Source of the DNA: Bacteroidota bacterium
Lineage (GTDB): Bacteria; Bacteroidota; Bacteroidia; Chitinophagales; JADIYW01
Direction of reading: 5' to 3'
DNA length: 34,842 nucleotides
Assembly: GCA_020436225.1 (NCBI GenBank)
Contig: JAGQYE010000118.1
Coordinates: 1 to 34,842, forward strand
The translations under genes and the position numbers were made by a program. The notes beneath the pieces are model-generated. The model was not told where the DNA came from. It made no database searches and saw only the letters and a program-made list of their open reading frames with translations. Below are positions 19,991 through 27,248 of this stretch, in pieces (positions within the stretch are counted from its first letter, which is position 1; each line of letters begins with the position of its first letter).

Positions 19991-20920
19991 ATGAGACTTC
20001 TTTCCTATATAAATGAGAAAATAAAACAGTTCATCATCAAGCGTGCATCCAAACATAAATTGGTAGATATTGTACAAGTGCGCACGAAAGAAATCGGACT
20101 GCTATCGGTGCAAACTGAAACAGATTTGCGTATTACAAACTCCATTTTTTTACCCTATACTATTTTGTCTATCCATACAGATTTATTAAATAAAGATGAA
20201 TTGAAAATCGGAAAAATGGTGTACGATAAACCAATAAAAATAAAAGGCAACTCGGAAGTAGTGCTTTCTACTACATCAGAAATTAGTATTATTACTTCGT
20301 TTTTTCAAGCCTTATCCAATCTATTATCGCACCCAATTTGGATTCGTAGTGTGGGCATTGCCATGGTGAAAGTATTATGGTTTACTATCGAATTGCCTGT
20401 AGATGATGTGTTCGAAATTCAGCCATCTAAAATAAAAATTCTAAAAGAAGAAACCGAAGAAGAACGCACTTTGCGATTACAAAAAGAAGCGGAACGTCAA
20501 GAACAAAAACGCATCAAACAAGCAGAAAAAGAAGCACAAAAGCAATTAACCGAAGAAGAAAAGAAAATCAAACAAGCAGAAAAAGAGAAAGCGGCTGAAC
20601 TGAAAGCTATTGAAAAAGCGCAACAGAAAGAAGAAAGAACAGCCCAACGAAATGAACGTCGTTCTGATAGAAAAGAAGCTATTTTAAAACGCCGACATAA
20701 AGAAAATTATATTCCAAAAGATGAACGTGAAAAACAAAAATCAACAGCGATTGACGTACAACAAGAAGAAATTTCTAATCGGCAAGAATCGGAAATAATT
20801 TCAGAAGAAATCAAAAAAGATATTCAAGAAGAAACCATTCAATCTGCATCATCAACTGAAAATATAAATCCGGAATTAGCTAACGATAAAGATGCTTCTG
20901 CGGAAAATATTACAACTTAA
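19991..20920 (+). CDS. Protein with LEA-2-like beta domain and long charged tail
   Basis: I do not recognise a named family with certainty. Residues 1-25 form an amphipathic basic helix (LLSYINEKIKQFIIKRASKH). Residues about 28-145 look like one beta-sandwich with a T-D-L-R-I-T-N-S-I-F-L-P-Y-T-I pattern and paired strands ending WFTIELPVDDVFEI, similar to LEA type 2 (WHy-like) domains. Residues about 150-240 are a highly charged Lys/Glu/Gln/Arg predicted coiled coil (KRIKQAEKEAQKQLTEEEKK), followed by an acidic low-complexity tail. There is no signal peptide. The gene starts 119 bp from the divergent hydroxylase gene and its last 11 bp overlap the convergent gene at 20910. Confidence 0.6.
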   Translation: MRLLSYINEKIKQFIIKRASKHKLVDIVQVRTKEIGLLSVQTETDLRITNSIFLPYTILSIHTDLLNKDELKIGKMVYDKPIKIKGNSEVVLSTTSEISIITSFFQALSNLLSHPIWIRSVGIAMVKVLWFTIELPVDDVFEIQPSKIKILKEETEEERTLRLQKEAERQEQKRIKQAEKEAQKQLTEEEKKIKQAEKEKAAELKAIEKAQQKEERTAQRNERRSDRKEAILKRRHKENYIPKDEREKQKSTAIDVQQEEISNRQESEIISEEIKKDIQEETIQSASSTENINPELANDKDASAENITT

Positions 20921-23339
20921 ATTTTAAATAGTATTTGAAATAATTGCAATTACTTTTTATTTCATTGTAGTATGCAGTTTTACTGTATCTGTCTTTCAAT
21001 TTTTTAAATAAAGGACGATTACTCGAGCTGTACAATGGTTTGTAATTGTCATACGACCAACAATTGGCATAATTACTGTTTTCACATTTATCAAAATATA
21101 AATCCAACTCACATTTTGATGCTTGAAAAACAGCCTTAGCTTTTAATTCCATATCATTAGCTTTGTTTTCAGCAAGCAAGAAATAATCATAAGGCTGTTT
21201 TATTTTGTTGTTGTTAATAGTGCCGGTTCCGCCATTGTAGTTATACGTTGGTTTTAAAACTACCGGACTTTTGCTGTAAGTATATAAATACGACAAATAA
21301 TAATTGCCGGGTTCGTAGTAAAAGAAATTGCGATAATAACCCCAGTTGGAAGTATTGTAATAAAAATTTCCAAGCACAAAATTGGCTTTTGCTGCATTGT
21401 CGCCAGTTCCGTTTGCTAATTTTTTTAATTCTATTAAAGCTTCAACTAATTCTTGTTTGTTCATCGTTTCTTTAATAAAACTGAAATTCTTGTACGTTTT
21501 ATCTGTAAATGCTTGTTGTAAATTTTGGTCGAAATAGGTTTGAATACTACAACTAAAAATGCCGGCGCTTATGTTGCTATAGCCATTGAACGTTCCGTCT
21601 TTTTCTATAATAGATTCTTGACCATTATCATCATAATTGTATTCATGAATTTTTAAGAAAGACAATTTTGAGTCAACTTTTTTATACCAAACCAATGCAC
21701 TAACTAAATCATCTTTTTTGAAATAATAAGTGCCTTTTAAATCGTATAATTCTTGCAAAGGTTGTTTGCTTGTAATGTGTTTTTTAATTAATTGTTGTTC
21801 AAATGCTGATTTGGTTTCCTTCTTAAAAAAATCAATCAAACTATTAATAATATTAATGTTTAAGGAAGAATATAATCCTGAAAAATCATTGTGGCACAAA
21901 AATGCTTGTGCATAATCTTTTTGTAAAATATAATTGTGCGCCAAGATATCATATACAAAGTTCTGTTCGTTTTCATCAATATTTTTTGTGTAATGTTTGA
22001 AGATATTTTCTTCAGCTGTTTTATCAATAGTTTTTAAACTTCCGATATAAGCACAAAACGAAGTTCTTTGTGCTTGAGTCATGATTTGTGTTTCATTAGA
22101 ATTTATTTTATCAGCAATATTTTTTGATTTGATATATTGACCGTTCAATAAATACAAATGCGCCAAATACGCTTGCCAAAAATCTATGCGTTTTACCTTA
22201 TTGCTCTTTACTAAATTTTCAGTAAATAGAATTACTTTTTGCAGAAATAATTTCCCTTTTGCATCCATTAGAGGAAATGTTGTATTGTCATTGTAAGTTG
22301 AAGGAATTTCGAAAGAGTTGTGTTCCATTTGCAACAAGGTTCGGCACGCCATCAACTCTAAATAAGCGCTGTTGGGTGCAATGGCATAAATGTTTTTCAT
22401 TTCCGATAAACCATTGGAAAACTTATTAAATCCACGCAACACATACAAGGCTGCTTTTTCATCGCTCGTTTTACATAAAGCAATAGATTTATCGAAATCC
22501 ATTTGATTAGAGATGCGGAAACTTGCATAACATTGCAGTTTTCTATCTGGAGTATGATGAAAAACACTGGCATAATTGGCACCGGCTTCTGCATATTTCT
22601 TTTGATTAAAAAGTGCGCCGGCTTTTTGTTCCAAGGCATAATAATAAATCAAGTTTTTTAATTTTAACGGCTCTACATAAGTCTTGAAATATCGAATAGC
22701 ATCGTCGTTAAAACCGCCGTAATGCGACAAACGAACCAACTGATAAGCAATGCGCAATTTTATATCAGCATTTTTTGTGTTTGCATATAAGATGTTGCCG
22801 TCTTTTGCGGTTGACATAAATTCAGGTTTTGTCATTTTTTTGCGAATAGAACCATAATACCAACTGTCATCGCTGCTTTCTTCTGATGCAACAGCAAATG
22901 GTTCACATTCTTTTGCAAAAATCAAATATCGTAAAGCTTCCATGCCTTTTTCGGTTAAGTAAATTGATTTACTTAATGTCAAACTTGCGCCTTGTAATGA
23001 TTTTTTAGAAAGTATATTTCTTAATTCTTCCGGCTTAGATTGATATACCAAATAATTCAAATCTTTTACACTTACTTGATTGTCGAAGAATTTTTTCCAT
23101 TCCAAAATATTATAATCTATATCTTCATTCAATTCTGTTTCATTCGTTTCTCCATCAAATCCTGCATCGCCGTAAAAAGATTCATCATACGTTAAAAAAA
23201 ATGGAGTAAGCGTTTTGTCTGAGATTAAATTCTGGTTGAATAAATTATAATAAGATGCATCTTCAGAATACCAAGAACAAGCTGTAGTATTGTTGAATAA
23301 AAAAGCTATAGAAGCAATAAATAATATATATTTTTTCAT
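20910..23339 (-). CDS. Large exported helical-repeat protein, unknown function
   Basis: I use the ATG at 23339 (809 aa); the upstream in-frame extension to 23420 runs into the preceding gene and lacks a signal. The product opens MKKYILFIASIAFLFNNTTA, followed by Cys21; TTAC is a poor lipobox, so it may be a lipoprotein or simply exported. After an acidic, Tyr-rich N-terminal part (CSWYSEDASYYNLF), most of the protein is TPR-like helix (AGALFNQKKYAEAGANYASV; LKGTYYFKKDDLVSALVWYKK). Near the C-terminus is a Tyr/Asn-rich segment (about 690-740). It starts 2 bp after the upstream lipoprotein gene, so the two are almost surely one operon. I recall similar gene pairs in other Bacteroidota, without an assigned function. 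Confidence 0.8.
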   Translation of the reverse strand: MKKYILFIASIAFLFNNTTACSWYSEDASYYNLFNQNLISDKTLTPFFLTYDESFYGDAGFDGETNETELNEDIDYNILEWKKFFDNQVSVKDLNYLVYQSKPEELRNILSKKSLQGASLTLSKSIYLTEKGMEALRYLIFAKECEPFAVASEESSDDSWYYGSIRKKMTKPEFMSTAKDGNILYANTKNADIKLRIAYQLVRLSHYGGFNDDAIRYFKTYVEPLKLKNLIYYYALEQKAGALFNQKKYAEAGANYASVFHHTPDRKLQCYASFRISNQMDFDKSIALCKTSDEKAALYVLRGFNKFSNGLSEMKNIYAIAPNSAYLELMACRTLLQMEHNSFEIPSTYNDNTTFPLMDAKGKLFLQKVILFTENLVKSNKVKRIDFWQAYLAHLYLLNGQYIKSKNIADKINSNETQIMTQAQRTSFCAYIGSLKTIDKTAEENIFKHYTKNIDENEQNFVYDILAHNYILQKDYAQAFLCHNDFSGLYSSLNINIINSLIDFFKKETKSAFEQQLIKKHITSKQPLQELYDLKGTYYFKKDDLVSALVWYKKVDSKLSFLKIHEYNYDDNGQESIIEKDGTFNGYSNISAGIFSCSIQTYFDQNLQQAFTDKTYKNFSFIKETMNKQELVEALIELKKLANGTGDNAAKANFVLGNFYYNTSNWGYYRNFFYYEPGNYYLSYLYTYSKSPVVLKPTYNYNGGTGTINNNKIKQPYDYFLLAENKANDMELKAKAVFQASKCELDLYFDKCENSNYANCWSYDNYKPLYSSSNRPLFKKLKDRYSKTAYYNEIKSNCNYFKYYLKFKL

Positions 23340-23341
23340 GT

Positions 23342-24334
23342 TTAATTGGTTTTTAATTGTTGAACAGAATAGTGAACCAAATTTGATGAATCTAATTGAA
23401 AATATAAGATTTTTTCCCATTTATTTTTCAACTTTTTAGCAATATTTTCTTGAGCAATTTTTAAATCTTGAGCCGAAATACTTTCTGTTTTAATAGTAAA
23501 ATCCTCATAGATATAATTGCCTTTTAAATAATGTGCTTTTTTTACGACATAGAAATTTGGTTTTAACTTTTGATATAATGAAGTGTCTATCAAATCTTCA
23601 TTTCTAATGTTGTTGATTAACCTTTTTTCGCCCACTTGATTTTCTACAATTGCCCAACTATAAATCGGCAAGGCAACATCTAATTTTAAAGGATAAGAGT
23701 CTATATTTTTTATGTAATTCTGAGCTACAGCATTATCTAATATCGAATTTTTATCTTTAAAATCTAATGGATTTGAAGTGGCATAATACATCAAAACACC
23801 TTTGTCTATTGGAGGAATGCCAGTTTGTATTCTATCTCGAATTTGGTGTAATCGTATAGTCGCCGATATTTGCAATGTCTTATTTTGTTGTTTTAATTCA
23901 TTCAAAAAATGAAAATACTTTTCTTTTGTACTTTCTGTCCAATCGCAATCAATTTGTATTTCTTGTAATGTTTTGTCTGAAATATTGGGATATAAAAACG
24001 ATATTTTACGTTGAATATTGGATGCTAATTGCGTTACCTCTTTTTGTGGTAAAACTTTAAAAGTTTCATTCGTAATAAACACCACAGGAATTATTTGTTG
24101 ATACTTGTTTTTTTCGTGAATTTGAATGGTGCCTACCGGAACAGCTTTCCCGTTTTTTATATCGACATCAAAGAAACGAACATACAATTGCTGAACAGCT
24201 AAGCTATCTAAATAATGTTGTTCGAAATCAGAAATCTGAAAATTAGATTCCCAAAAATAGAAGGCAATATTCTTTTTTTGTTGGCATGAGTTAAGCAACA
24301 AACAAACGAAAATCAAAACCCAAATTTTTCTCAT
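23342..24334 (-). CDS. Lipoprotein with possible glycoside-hydrolase-like barrel
   Basis: The 330-aa protein has a clear lipoprotein signal: MRKIWVLIF, then LLLNSC with acylated Cys17. The mature part alternates strands and helices like a TIM barrel: IAFYFWESNF, LYVRFFDVDIKNGKAVPVG, IIPVVFITNE, IQIDCDWTESTKEKYFHFL (126-144), LQISATIRLHQI and VLMYYATSNP. The D-x-D-W motif at 129-132 at the end of a predicted strand would be a natural active-site or ligand position, as in polysaccharide-acting barrels. This resembles barrel lipoproteins of the DUF3142 sort, but I cannot confirm the family. It is the first gene of a two-gene operon with the 809-aa protein. Confidence 0.75.
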   Translation of the reverse strand: MRKIWVLIFVCLLLNSCQQKKNIAFYFWESNFQISDFEQHYLDSLAVQQLYVRFFDVDIKNGKAVPVGTIQIHEKNKYQQIIPVVFITNETFKVLPQKEVTQLASNIQRKISFLYPNISDKTLQEIQIDCDWTESTKEKYFHFLNELKQQNKTLQISATIRLHQIRDRIQTGIPPIDKGVLMYYATSNPLDFKDKNSILDNAVAQNYIKNIDSYPLKLDVALPIYSWAIVENQVGEKRLINNIRNEDLIDTSLYQKLKPNFYVVKKAHYLKGNYIYEDFTIKTESISAQDLKIAQENIAKKLKNKWEKILYFQLDSSNLVHYSVQQLKTN

Positions 24335-24345
24335 AAATGCTTTGT

Positions 24346-24353
24346 CAAATGTA
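24346..24353 (-). promoter_or_regulatory. Putative -7 box for the lipoprotein operon
   Basis: The minus strand reads TACATTTG, an exact TAnnTTTG match, ending 11 nt before the ATG at 24334. The predicted leader is about 8 nt. No good -33 element is seen, and the box lies in a 77-bp divergent spacer. Confidence 0.45.
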
Positions 24354-24377
24354 CTATAAATAGCGCTTGAGTTGCTC

Positions 24378-24407
24378 TTGATAAATGAAATATTCTTAAT
24401 ACCTTTG
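24378..24407 (+). promoter_or_regulatory. Promoter of the kinase-RapZ fusion gene
   Basis: TTG at 24378-24380, exactly 19 bp, then TACCTTTG at 24400-24407, a full match to the Bacteroidota -33/-7 promoter. The G of the -7 box is 4 nt from the ATG at 24412, and an in-frame TAA at 24397-24399 excludes an upstream start. The transcript should be leaderless or nearly so. Confidence 0.65.
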
Positions 24408-24411
24408 GTTT

Positions 24412-25839
24412 ATGCATGAACAAATTTTACGCCAATTATTTGAACAATATTTTAATTCTGCCTGCGATACTATTATACTATTGCCTCAAGCCGGCTCAGA
24501 TAGAATTTATTTTCGATTGAGTAATCAGCAACATGCTGCTGTAGGAACTTTTGGAAAAGACATCAACGAAAACAAGACGTTTATTCATCATACTCAACAT
24601 TTTCAACAGAAACAAATTGCTGTTCCACAAATTTATGCAGTTAGCGATGATAGCCAATATTATATTCAACAAGATTTAGGTGAAACTTCGTTATATAGCA
24701 TCATTCGAAAAGAAGGTATTTCTGAAAATGCTGTACAATATTTAAAAGAAGTATTGCAACAGTTGGCACATCTGCAAATAAAAGGCGCCGAAAATTTTGA
24801 TTTTTCTCAGTGCTATCCAATCCAAGAATTTAATAGAAGTTCGATGTTTTGGGATTTGAATTCGTTTAAATATTATTTTGCCCGAGTGGCACGTGTGCAT
24901 TTCAGCGAAGTGGAATTAAACAAAGATTTTCATACACTAAGCGATTATCTACTCGAAGAAAAAAATACGTATTTTATGTTCCGTGATTGCCAATCGCGAA
25001 ATATTATGATTTATGAAAATCGACCGTATTTCATCGACTATCAAGGTGGACGAAAAGGTGCGTTGCAATACGATGTAGCTTCACTTTTATGGCAAGCAGG
25101 TGCCAGGATTTCTCCGGCACAACGAGCGTCTTTGTTGAATGATTATGTTGAAATTATCTCCAATATAATTTCTATCGACAAACAAGCATTTATCGAACGA
25201 TATTATGGTTTTGTGTTGATACGAATGTTGCAAGTGTTGGGCGCTTATGGTTTCCGTGGCTTGATAGAAAAGCGTTCACATTTTATGGAAAGTATTGTGC
25301 CTGCTTTGGAAAATGTGAGATGGTTTTTAGAAAATATCCAATTGAAAATTGAATTACCTGAATTGACCAATGTACTACAACAATTGCTCGATTCTGATAT
25401 GTTTACTGTTGAGCAATTTGATGGTTCAACTAAACCGTTGATGGTTGAGGTTAATAGTTTTTCTTATAAAAGAGGTATTCCAAAAGATACAACTTCAAAC
25501 GGTGGAGGATTTGTATTTGATTGTAGAGGTTTGCATAATCCGGGAAGATATGAGCCTTATAAAATGCTGACAGGAAAAGATCAAGCAGTGATAGAATTTT
25601 TAGAAACGCAAAGCAAAGTCAAAGAATTTTTAGAAAATATTTACAGAGTTATCGACATCAATATTCAAAATTATTTAAGCAGAGATTTTGAGCATTTGCA
25701 AATTAATTTTGGTTGTACAGGTGGTCAACATCGTAGTGTATATTGTGCAGAACAAACAGCTAAATATATTAAAGAGAAATACAAAGTAAATGTTCAAATC
25801 AAACATATTGAAAGAGAATTACACGGTCAATTTATTTAA
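24412..25839 (+). CDS. Fusion of AmgK-type amino-sugar kinase and RapZ C-terminal domain
   Basis: Residues 1-315 form an aminoglycoside-phosphotransferase-like kinase: a nucleotide-binding lobe (AGSDRIYFRLSN, AVGTFGKDINENKTF), the catalytic loop FRDCQSRNIMI with base Asp192 and Asn197, and metal-binding Asp209 in YFIDYQGGRKGALQYDVASL. The RDxxxRN...DxQ pattern matches AmgK, which phosphorylates MurNAc/GlcNAc at the anomeric carbon, better than drug kinases. Residues about 345-475 are a RapZ C-terminal domain: GGFVFDCRGLHNPGRYEPY, then KMLTGKDQAVIEFLE and the signature GCTGGQHRSVY (434-444). The P-loop half of RapZ is absent, replaced by the kinase. The MurU-like gene lies downstream, beyond a toxin-antitoxin pair. 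Substrate and sensing role are inferred. Confidence 0.88.
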   Translation: MHEQILRQLFEQYFNSACDTIILLPQAGSDRIYFRLSNQQHAAVGTFGKDINENKTFIHHTQHFQQKQIAVPQIYAVSDDSQYYIQQDLGETSLYSIIRKEGISENAVQYLKEVLQQLAHLQIKGAENFDFSQCYPIQEFNRSSMFWDLNSFKYYFARVARVHFSEVELNKDFHTLSDYLLEEKNTYFMFRDCQSRNIMIYENRPYFIDYQGGRKGALQYDVASLLWQAGARISPAQRASLLNDYVEIISNIISIDKQAFIERYYGFVLIRMLQVLGAYGFRGLIEKRSHFMESIVPALENVRWFLENIQLKIELPELTNVLQQLLDSDMFTVEQFDGSTKPLMVEVNSFSYKRGIPKDTTSNGGGFVFDCRGLHNPGRYEPYKMLTGKDQAVIEFLETQSKVKEFLENIYRVIDINIQNYLSRDFEHLQINFGCTGGQHRSVYCAEQTAKYIKEKYKVNVQIKHIERELHGQFI

Positions 25840-26447: not shown

Positions 26448-27248
26448 ATGAAAGCCATGATATTTGCAGCCGGCTTTGGCACTCGCTTAAAACCATTAAC
26501 TGATACTTGTCCGAAAGCCTTAGTGCAAGTAGGCAACAAGCCGATGTTACAACATACTATCGAACATCTAATAAAACATGGTGTATCTGAAATCATCATC
26601 AACATTCATTATCTCGGCAATCAGATAATAGAGTTCTTGCAAGAAAATAATAATTTTAATATTCGTATCGACATCTCTGACGAAACAGATTTGATTTTAG
26701 AAACCGGCGGTGGTTTACTCAAAGCACAACATTTTTTTGATGATAATAAACCGTTTTTAGTTTGTAATGCCGATGTATTTACCAATATCAACCTGACAAA
26801 TTTTTTTCAATTTCATCAGGCACAAAATGCTATTGCTACTTTAGCCGTTCGACACCGAAAATCTTCGAGAGTGTTGTTGTTTGATGAGAAAAATGAATTA
26901 CAAGGTTGGCAAAATTTCAAAAATGAAGAAGCAAAATTTCCAAGCATTTTTGGCGATAGCGCTGCACATTATTACGATGCACAAAGTGAAATTTTTTCCG
27001 ATAAAAAATACGATGCCATAAAAAATGCAACAACTTATGCCTTTAGTGGCTATCAAATTCTATCGCCTGAAATTTTTAAACATACAACAAGAACGGGCAT
27101 CTTTTCTTTAGTAGAATGGTATATTGATATTTGTGCGCAACAAAAAATTATTGCTTACGAACATAATGAAGATGTATGGATAGACATCGGCTCGCCGGTG
27201 CAATTACAAAAAGCAAACGCAATTTATAATTCCATTGCTAAGGATTGA
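26448..27248 (+). CDS. murU: MurU-like sugar-1-phosphate nucleotidyltransferase
   Basis: The 266-aa protein has all the marks of the nucleotidyltransferase family: MKAMIFAAGFGTRLKPLTD, then PKAL with Lys23, the sugar-binding LETGGG at 84-89, metal-binding Asp109 in CNADVF, and a second metal ligand Asp246 in WIDIGSP. ETGGG and the short overall length fit MurU (MurNAc-1-P uridylyltransferase) better than RmlA or GlmU. MurU makes UDP-MurNAc from MurNAc-1-P made by AmgK, bypassing de novo synthesis. The kinase fusion lies about 600 bp upstream, supporting this reading. A mannose-1-P or other hexose-1-P role remains possible. The 3' end overlaps the convergent gene by 11 bp. Confidence 0.8.
   Translation: MKAMIFAAGFGTRLKPLTDTCPKALVQVGNKPMLQHTIEHLIKHGVSEIIINIHYLGNQIIEFLQENNNFNIRIDISDETDLILETGGGLLKAQHFFDDNKPFLVCNADVFTNINLTNFFQFHQAQNAIATLAVRHRKSSRVLLFDEKNELQGWQNFKNEEAKFPSIFGDSAAHYYDAQSEIFSDKKYDAIKNATTYAFSGYQILSPEIFKHTTRTGIFSLVEWYIDICAQQKIIAYEHNEDVWIDIGSPVQLQKANAIYNSIAKD

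Follow-up and report, generated by a model that had tools for sequence, protein, structure and literature searches.

We wanted to find out what two exported proteins of a Bacteroidota bacterium are, whose genes lie almost end to end, and whether the two act as one system. The window, by which we mean the whole stretch of DNA analysed (34,842 nucleotides), carries the genes in the following arrangement:

20910..23339, minus strand: partner gene, 809 aa; predicted exported TPR-like protein with Cys21 after the signal peptide and Cys798 near the C-terminus

23342..24334, minus strand: lipoprotein gene, 330 aa, ATG at 24334; predicted GH18-fold TIM barrel with an altered catalytic strand (residues Q127-x-D129-x-D131-W132; M182-x-Y184)

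24335..24411, no strand: divergent intergenic region of 77 bp, which probably holds the promoter of the pair

The two genes are on the same strand, with 2 bp between the end of the lipoprotein gene and the start of the partner gene; these coordinates, lengths and the gap had been given correctly in the first-pass annotation. It had also described both products as exported, and this agrees with the lipobox LLNSC with Cys17 in the lipoprotein and with the signal-peptide-like N-terminus of the partner. The frame of the partner is open upstream as far as 23420, overlapping the lipoprotein gene; its conserved start is the ATG at 23339. On the coding strand, 11 bp upstream of the lipoprotein ATG, there is TACATTTG, which resembles the Bacteroidota -7 element, TAnnTTTG. 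A second stretch, TACCTTTG, lies in the same 77-bp gap, 4 bp ahead of the start codon of the opposite gene, and both stretches fit this consensus. Elements of this kind so near to both ATGs would mean that the transcripts are almost leaderless. At the other side of the pair, a convergent gene (19991-20920, plus strand) overlaps the end of the partner gene by 11 bp. The product of this convergent gene is strongly charged in its second half, with many Glu and Lys residues, and matched no Pfam family at E≤1.

We assessed how often the two families are found in the same genome. In profile searches of 396 genomes sampled from the order, the lipoprotein was detected in 138 and the partner in 135; 132 genomes had both, 6 the lipoprotein alone and 3 the partner alone. 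Among the lipoprotein-only genomes, four (G030, G043, G055 and G067, all from genus g22) gave strong matches and two (G032, G056) weak ones. The partner-only genomes (G031, G606, G615) gave weak matches, with E from 6e-6 to 3e-4. The lipoprotein of the single genus g22 (4 genomes; loci L253, L254, L255 and L256) is diverged, and no partner is detectable there. In a sample of 395 genomes from the phylum, 47 had the lipoprotein and 52 a partner match. Strong partner matches (E below 1e-20) numbered 46 and all fell within the 47 lipoprotein genomes; the remaining 6 were weak (1.8e-5 to 3.1e-4). Of 149 relatives searched with single sequences, 40 had the lipoprotein; 33 of these 40, and no others, had the partner. 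Within the genus of the window the pair was complete in 5 of 8 genomes and both genes were missing in the other 3. Where a genome carries several copies, the lipoproteins often have a partner copy of their own.

The exact test (Fisher) of co-occurrence gave p = 3e-93 for the order and p = 3e-52 for the phylum, values which are inflated by shared ancestry and are not true probabilities, because the genomes are related. Better evidence than these values is the pattern seen in the window's genus, in the places of the two genes and in their trees. The two families occur together almost without exception. The similar pairs that the first-pass annotation had mentioned in other Bacteroidota are real, and in the order and phylum samples they form a conserved two-gene system. 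Rare co-occurrence, which it had named as one of two findings that would speak against its proposal, did not arise.

Further, we examined whether the genes also stay together on the chromosome. For this comparison we took the 100 genomes in which each family had a single match and both places were listed; starting from 105 lipoprotein places, G051, G112, G589, G719 and G755 were left out, and 32 of the 132 genomes with both genes lie outside the sample. The genes were adjacent in 68 genomes, with the lipoprotein first and on the same strand. In the other 32 they were unlinked, yet both were kept: in 24 the two lay on separate contigs, and in 8 they shared a contig but were separated by 46 kb or more. 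In each of the 24, the 5' side of the partner or the 3' side of the lipoprotein lies kilobases from the contig end, and therefore a contig break between the genes does not explain these cases. Both genes are thus kept even after moving apart. In 43 of 43 loci with both genes the order was lipoprotein then partner on one strand, many of them overlapping by about 30-40 bp as called; since these loci were chosen around known pairs, the estimate of adjacency comes from the 100-genome sample and not from them.

The trees of the two proteins, built for 54 pairs of which 9 are unlinked, agreed with each other (Mantel r 0.75, a value reached by 0 of 2000 permutations; for the distances that involve unlinked pairs, r was 0.63). 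The nearest relative of the lipoprotein was within the three nearest of the partner in 46 of the 54 pairs, and the nearest relatives of the two proteins disagreed in 2 of the 9 unlinked pairs (G701, G697). The mean tree distance of the partner was approximately 1.5 times that of the lipoprotein.

A survey of the gene neighbourhood, which had been recommended earlier, was performed on 80 loci. The pair recurs and a third gene does not: among the genes up to three places away from the pair, every cluster of neighbours was limited to 5 loci or fewer, and the larger ones stemmed mostly from single genera. Judged by clustering and by their N-termini, the immediate neighbours appear unrelated to one another, most of them having no family annotation. 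The unit is the two genes alone. With at most 5 of the 80 loci for any neighbour cluster, a conserved polysaccharide synthase gene is excluded, and no neighbour gene at these loci indicates a substrate.

Several neighbours were noted individually. The divergent gene of the window (24412-25839, plus strand) encodes an AmgK-like phosphotransferase domain joined to a RapZ C-terminal domain, possibly for amino-sugar recycling and sensing, and a MurU-like nucleotidyltransferase is encoded nearby at 26448-27248. Each g22 lipoprotein gene is convergent with a gene that reads as a member of the enolase superfamily; this gene, read as a putative L-Ala-D/L-Glu epimerase, is found beside the lipoprotein in g22 and near one pair. 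Four loci with a lone lipoprotein, all of one genus, have a common upstream gene of about 465 aa. We considered a peptidoglycan-recycling context on the basis of the AmgK-like and MurU-like genes, which adjoin the pair in the window's genus, and of the epimerase-like neighbours, and took it as chance, as the other neighbours appear unrelated.

Next to the genes, we analyzed the proteins. Structure prediction, also proposed in the first-pass annotation, was carried out for both; it gave a barrel for the lipoprotein and a mostly helical, poor model for the partner. The lipoprotein model was built from three sequences (pLDDT 64.6, pTM 0.69). Its strands (22-27, 49-58, 80-86, 125-129, 155-161, 178-182, 217-224 and 306-313) alternate with helices, so that the glycosidase-like order of strands and helices suspected before corresponds to a predicted eight-strand TIM barrel, the 19 top Foldseek rows being chitinase- or SleL-type. 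The opposite outcome, a lipoprotein that does not fold as a TIM barrel, was not what the model predicted at this pLDDT. A small strand-rich insert at approximately 226-286, mostly with pLDDT below 50, is placed between strand 7 and the last helix. As outlined in PMC2805709, GH18 enzymes of subfamily A have an insertion domain between strand 7 and helix 7, and the predicted insert of the lipoprotein occupies its place.

In the Foldseek comparison with the PDB the best match was SleL (E 9.7e-11, TM 0.58), at an rmsd of 8.4 that indicates a loose superposition. Ranks 1-19 were all of chitinase, SleL or YdhD type by title, and the first match of another kind stood at rank 20 (1.3e-4); from the titles, we take these 19 to be GH18 proteins. 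The best 50 rows of the VIA comparison, at Z 15-17 over 199-276 residues, were all chitinase or chitinase-like; 953 of the 999 aligned chains reached Z 8, as barrels do. Profile-profile comparison with GH18 was performed in seven settings, three of which gave E 3.8e-4 to 8.9e-4 (probability 23-36%) and four 0.0023-0.019 (2-13%), with 0.042-0.72 (0.1-1.2%) for a GH5 control. This is suggestive, not proof.

The GH18 family of Pfam, PF00704, was not listed for the window lipoprotein; it was absent from the 15 families that 27 members hit at E≤0.1 and from the 25 families listed, of 36, for 42 members at E≤1. The closest Pfam family was DUF3142 (PF11340). The window lipoprotein matched it with E 2.7e-4 (best member 6.9e-7) and 21.5 bits, below the curated cut-off of 30 bits, and only 6 of the 42 members matched it at E≤1. 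No solved structure was a significant relative by sequence of either the lipoprotein or the partner, SleL appearing at E 0.33 and 1.2 only. We predict from the model that the lipoprotein is a GH18-type TIM barrel. It resembles the SleL-type spore-cortex enzymes of GH18 (PDB 4s3j, 4s3k) in predicted barrel topology and in the place of the insert, and also in having Asp where the assisting residue lies, Met-x-Tyr on strand 6 and Pro-x-Tyr/Phe on strand 7. It differs from them in that the catalytic Glu is replaced by Asp (in another register, mostly by Thr or Ser), that it has no sequence-level GH18 family match, and that it carries a lipid anchor and almost always occurs with a TPR-like protein.

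GH18 enzymes carry the motif DxDxE with the catalytic Glu on strand 4, according to the description in PMC2805709. In human chitotriosidase, as presented in PMC12502790, Asp138, which is next to Glu140, binds the acetamido group, Met210 and Tyr212 act on the same group and Asp213 holds the sugar. In the window lipoprotein strand 4 reads Q127-x-D129-x-D131-W132 and strand 6 reads M182-x-Y184; the D-C-D-W that had been pointed out at 129-132 is present as D129-C130-D131-W132 at the end of predicted strand 4 of the barrel. D129 and D131 were kept in 85 of 85 distinct segments, 82 of them with Q at the first position and 3 with H or L instead. Met-x-Tyr on strand 6 was kept in 82 of 82 segments, and the residue that follows, Asp in GH18, was N in 64, A in 7, S in 6, D in 4 and H in 1.

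Two registers of strand 4 were compared. With D131 at the catalytic place, Glu was found there in 0 of 85 distinct segments. With T133 at this place, 84 of 85 had T, S or N, and one, the partner-less g22 protein L254, had E. The SleL alignments set D131 against the Glu, as did 4 of 6 profile comparisons, both of those with g22 among them; T133 took this place in the other 2 and in an earlier profile alignment. We clearly favour D131 over T133 as the residue that would take the Glu position, because no gap is then needed in the strand and because g22 reads FDFDY where SleL reads FDFES. The g22 lipoproteins have QxDxDY, and M-x-Y-D as in GH18.

As the catalytic Glu is replaced, the lipoprotein is not a canonical GH18 enzyme, and for the same reason the barrel could be inactive. 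It might then be a pseudo-enzyme, that is a glycan-binding receptor or sensor of GH18 fold which has lost catalysis and is held by the TPR partner, as in chitinase-like lectins. BRP39 and Ym1, which are non-catalytic chitinase-like proteins, were among the VIA matches, and T133 takes the Glu position in part of the profile alignments. However, D129, D131, M182 and Y184, which in the favoured register would carry chemistry of the GH18 kind, are kept in every distinct segment in which they were read, even in g22 where the partner is missing, and a lectin need not keep them. We regard the receptor as rather unlikely, though it is the main rival of the reading that we prefer, in which a GH18-derived barrel cuts or grips a glycan.

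The partner had been described as a large helical solenoid with a Tyr-rich start. The helical character agrees with the model, which is mostly helical with helices predicted up to the C-terminus (a poor model, pLDDT 47.6, pTM 0.34), and with a TPR-like family, as 10 of 29 homologues matched TPR_2 (Pfam) at E≤0.1; on the other hand, no TPR model matched the partner of the window itself, for which the Pfam matches were at chance level only. The Tyr-rich start holds weakly, with 6 Tyr in residues 1-60, while residues 661-720 hold 14. On the basis of these predictions the partner would be an exported TPR-like solenoid.

Two Cys residues do not vary in the alignment of 29 partners: C21, just past the signal segment, and C798, close to the C-terminus. 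In the wider set a Cys follows the hydrophobic segment in 71 of 71 distinct N-termini; this Cys was actively sought, and in one of the 71 contexts the Cys picked lies inside the signal segment. The last 40 residues include a Cys in 65 of 66 complete frames (all but the frame-broken L185), and in 55 of the 65 a Cys stands 9-13 residues before the end. A lipid anchor as a general feature of the partner was rejected, since I or L occupies position -3 in no more than 31 of 71 contexts, the others having S, T, A, G, N, Y, K, E, Q or P. Some members may be lipoproteins. As a consistent lipobox is missing from the partner, one may plausibly guess at a disulfide that links its two ends or joins it to another protein. 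No secretion-tail model of NCBIfam matched the partner.

So constant a companion could also be a folding or sorting factor dedicated to the lipoprotein, Slam-like or chaperone-like, with no glycan machine involved. Such a role would suit the tight pairing and touching genes, the frequent presence of own partner copies in multi-copy genomes, and a weak match of one of the 29 partners to the Slam TPR model. It is at odds with the longer mean tree distance of the partner than of its supposed client, with three tandem partner copies in one genome, and with the partner model (a poor one), in which no beta-barrel domain was seen. We consider a folding factor improbable. In the genome mentioned (G295), the three partner genes (L177, contig C11, 1-7051) start at contig base 1, and the lipoprotein gene (L176) ends 44 bases before the end of contig C51; it is likely that one lipoprotein was followed by three partners and that the contig break split them.

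Where in the cell the pair resides was judged from the residues after the lipid-carrying Cys. Acidic residues at +2 to +6 were counted in 72 lipoprotein contexts, in about 6 of which the lipobox heuristic evidently picked the wrong Cys: 25 had none, 41 had one and 6 had two. The window lipoprotein reads C-QQKKN. Surface-export signals given for Bacteroidota in PMC5080379 are QKDDE, SDDDD and SDDFE, and the minimal signal in one species is K-(D/E)2 or Q-A-(D/E)2. At most 6 of the 72 contexts could fit the minimal signal. On these sequence predictions both proteins are most likely periplasmic, since most of the lipoproteins have no known surface-export signal and the partner has no consistent lipobox.

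The first-pass annotation had suggested a surface system, and a lipoprotein and a repeat protein acquiring glycans outside the cell would be in keeping with the many lipoproteins that Bacteroidota display. Some partners could be lipidated and exported, because some N-termini are acidic after the Cys (e.g. CGGGDDWD) and I or L stands at -3 in 31 of 71. However, 66 of the 72 lipoprotein contexts have fewer than two acidic residues after the Cys, and SusD matches were found in 0 of 8 genomes of the window's genus. Together with the inconsistent lipobox of the partner this speaks against the suggestion, and we consider a surface system improbable.

The reading that we prefer, to which we give somewhat less than an even chance, is an obligate two-part periplasmic device, in which a TPR scaffold presents an N-acetylhexosamine glycan to the GH18-derived barrel, and the barrel cuts or grips it. 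The barrel is predicted to be lipid-anchored to a membrane and to face the periplasm. It would bind, and probably cleave, a glycan with 2-acetamido sugars, either peptidoglycan or an exported polysaccharide. By the substrate-assisted route of GH18, D129 would hold the acetamido group and Y184 would orient it, with D131 as the acid instead of the usual glutamate. The TPR partner, by analogy with the TPR domain of PgaA acting on PgaB, may hold the barrel and feed or guide the chain. The TPR domain of PgaA is reported in PMC9384988 to bind the polymer and to raise both enzyme activities of PgaB.

The likeness to the exopolysaccharide-processing pairs PgaA/PgaB and PelB/PelA would be that of a hydrolase beside a TPR protein which scaffolds it in the periplasm, as described in PMC9384988 for those systems. 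In contrast to them, the single 330-aa barrel leaves no room for a deacetylase domain, no porin barrel was seen in the partner (in a poor model, pLDDT 47.6), and no polysaccharide locus recurs next to the pair. A broader proposal, namely an obligate glycan machine throughout the Bacteroidota that has an Asp-x-Asp site for the Asp-x-Glu of GH18, works only with a TPR solenoid and has two near-invariant end cysteines, maybe tied by a disulfide, seems to us doubtful though worth stating.

The pair is found in approximately one third of the sampled species of the order (132/396) and one eighth of the sampled phylum (46/395). As far as our searches show, neither gene has been characterised, which leaves a sizeable gap in the envelope biology of Bacteroidota. 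No title or abstract start among the publications listed described the pair, and for DUF3142 a single paper was listed, on halotolerance. The fold is already known; the altered active site and the nearly obligate TPR-like partner are, within the reach of these searches, new. Should the barrel prove active, Asp as the acid of a GH18 scaffold would mark a noteworthy departure within an enzyme superfamily that has been studied in depth, and the pair may be an undescribed two-part tool for handling the sugar chains of the envelope. It should be easy to test because of its near-perfect co-occurrence.

Roles in defence and in phages were considered and set aside: PADLOC gave no match for the 4 proteins searched, and PHROGs gave one weak family of unknown function, for one homologue only. 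A plasmid search with the lipoprotein returned no match. The sole match in a phage record, L185 (MT837997.1, 3226-6263; 'Bacteriophage sp.' in GenBank, from human faeces), encodes the pair together with an apparent DNA polymerase I, and has the look of bacterial DNA; the partner gene in this record is divided between two frames. In L062, an IMG/VR contig (953-2227 and 5983-9298), phage head-type genes lie approximately 4 kb from the pair, and this locus is either a prophage border or cargo.
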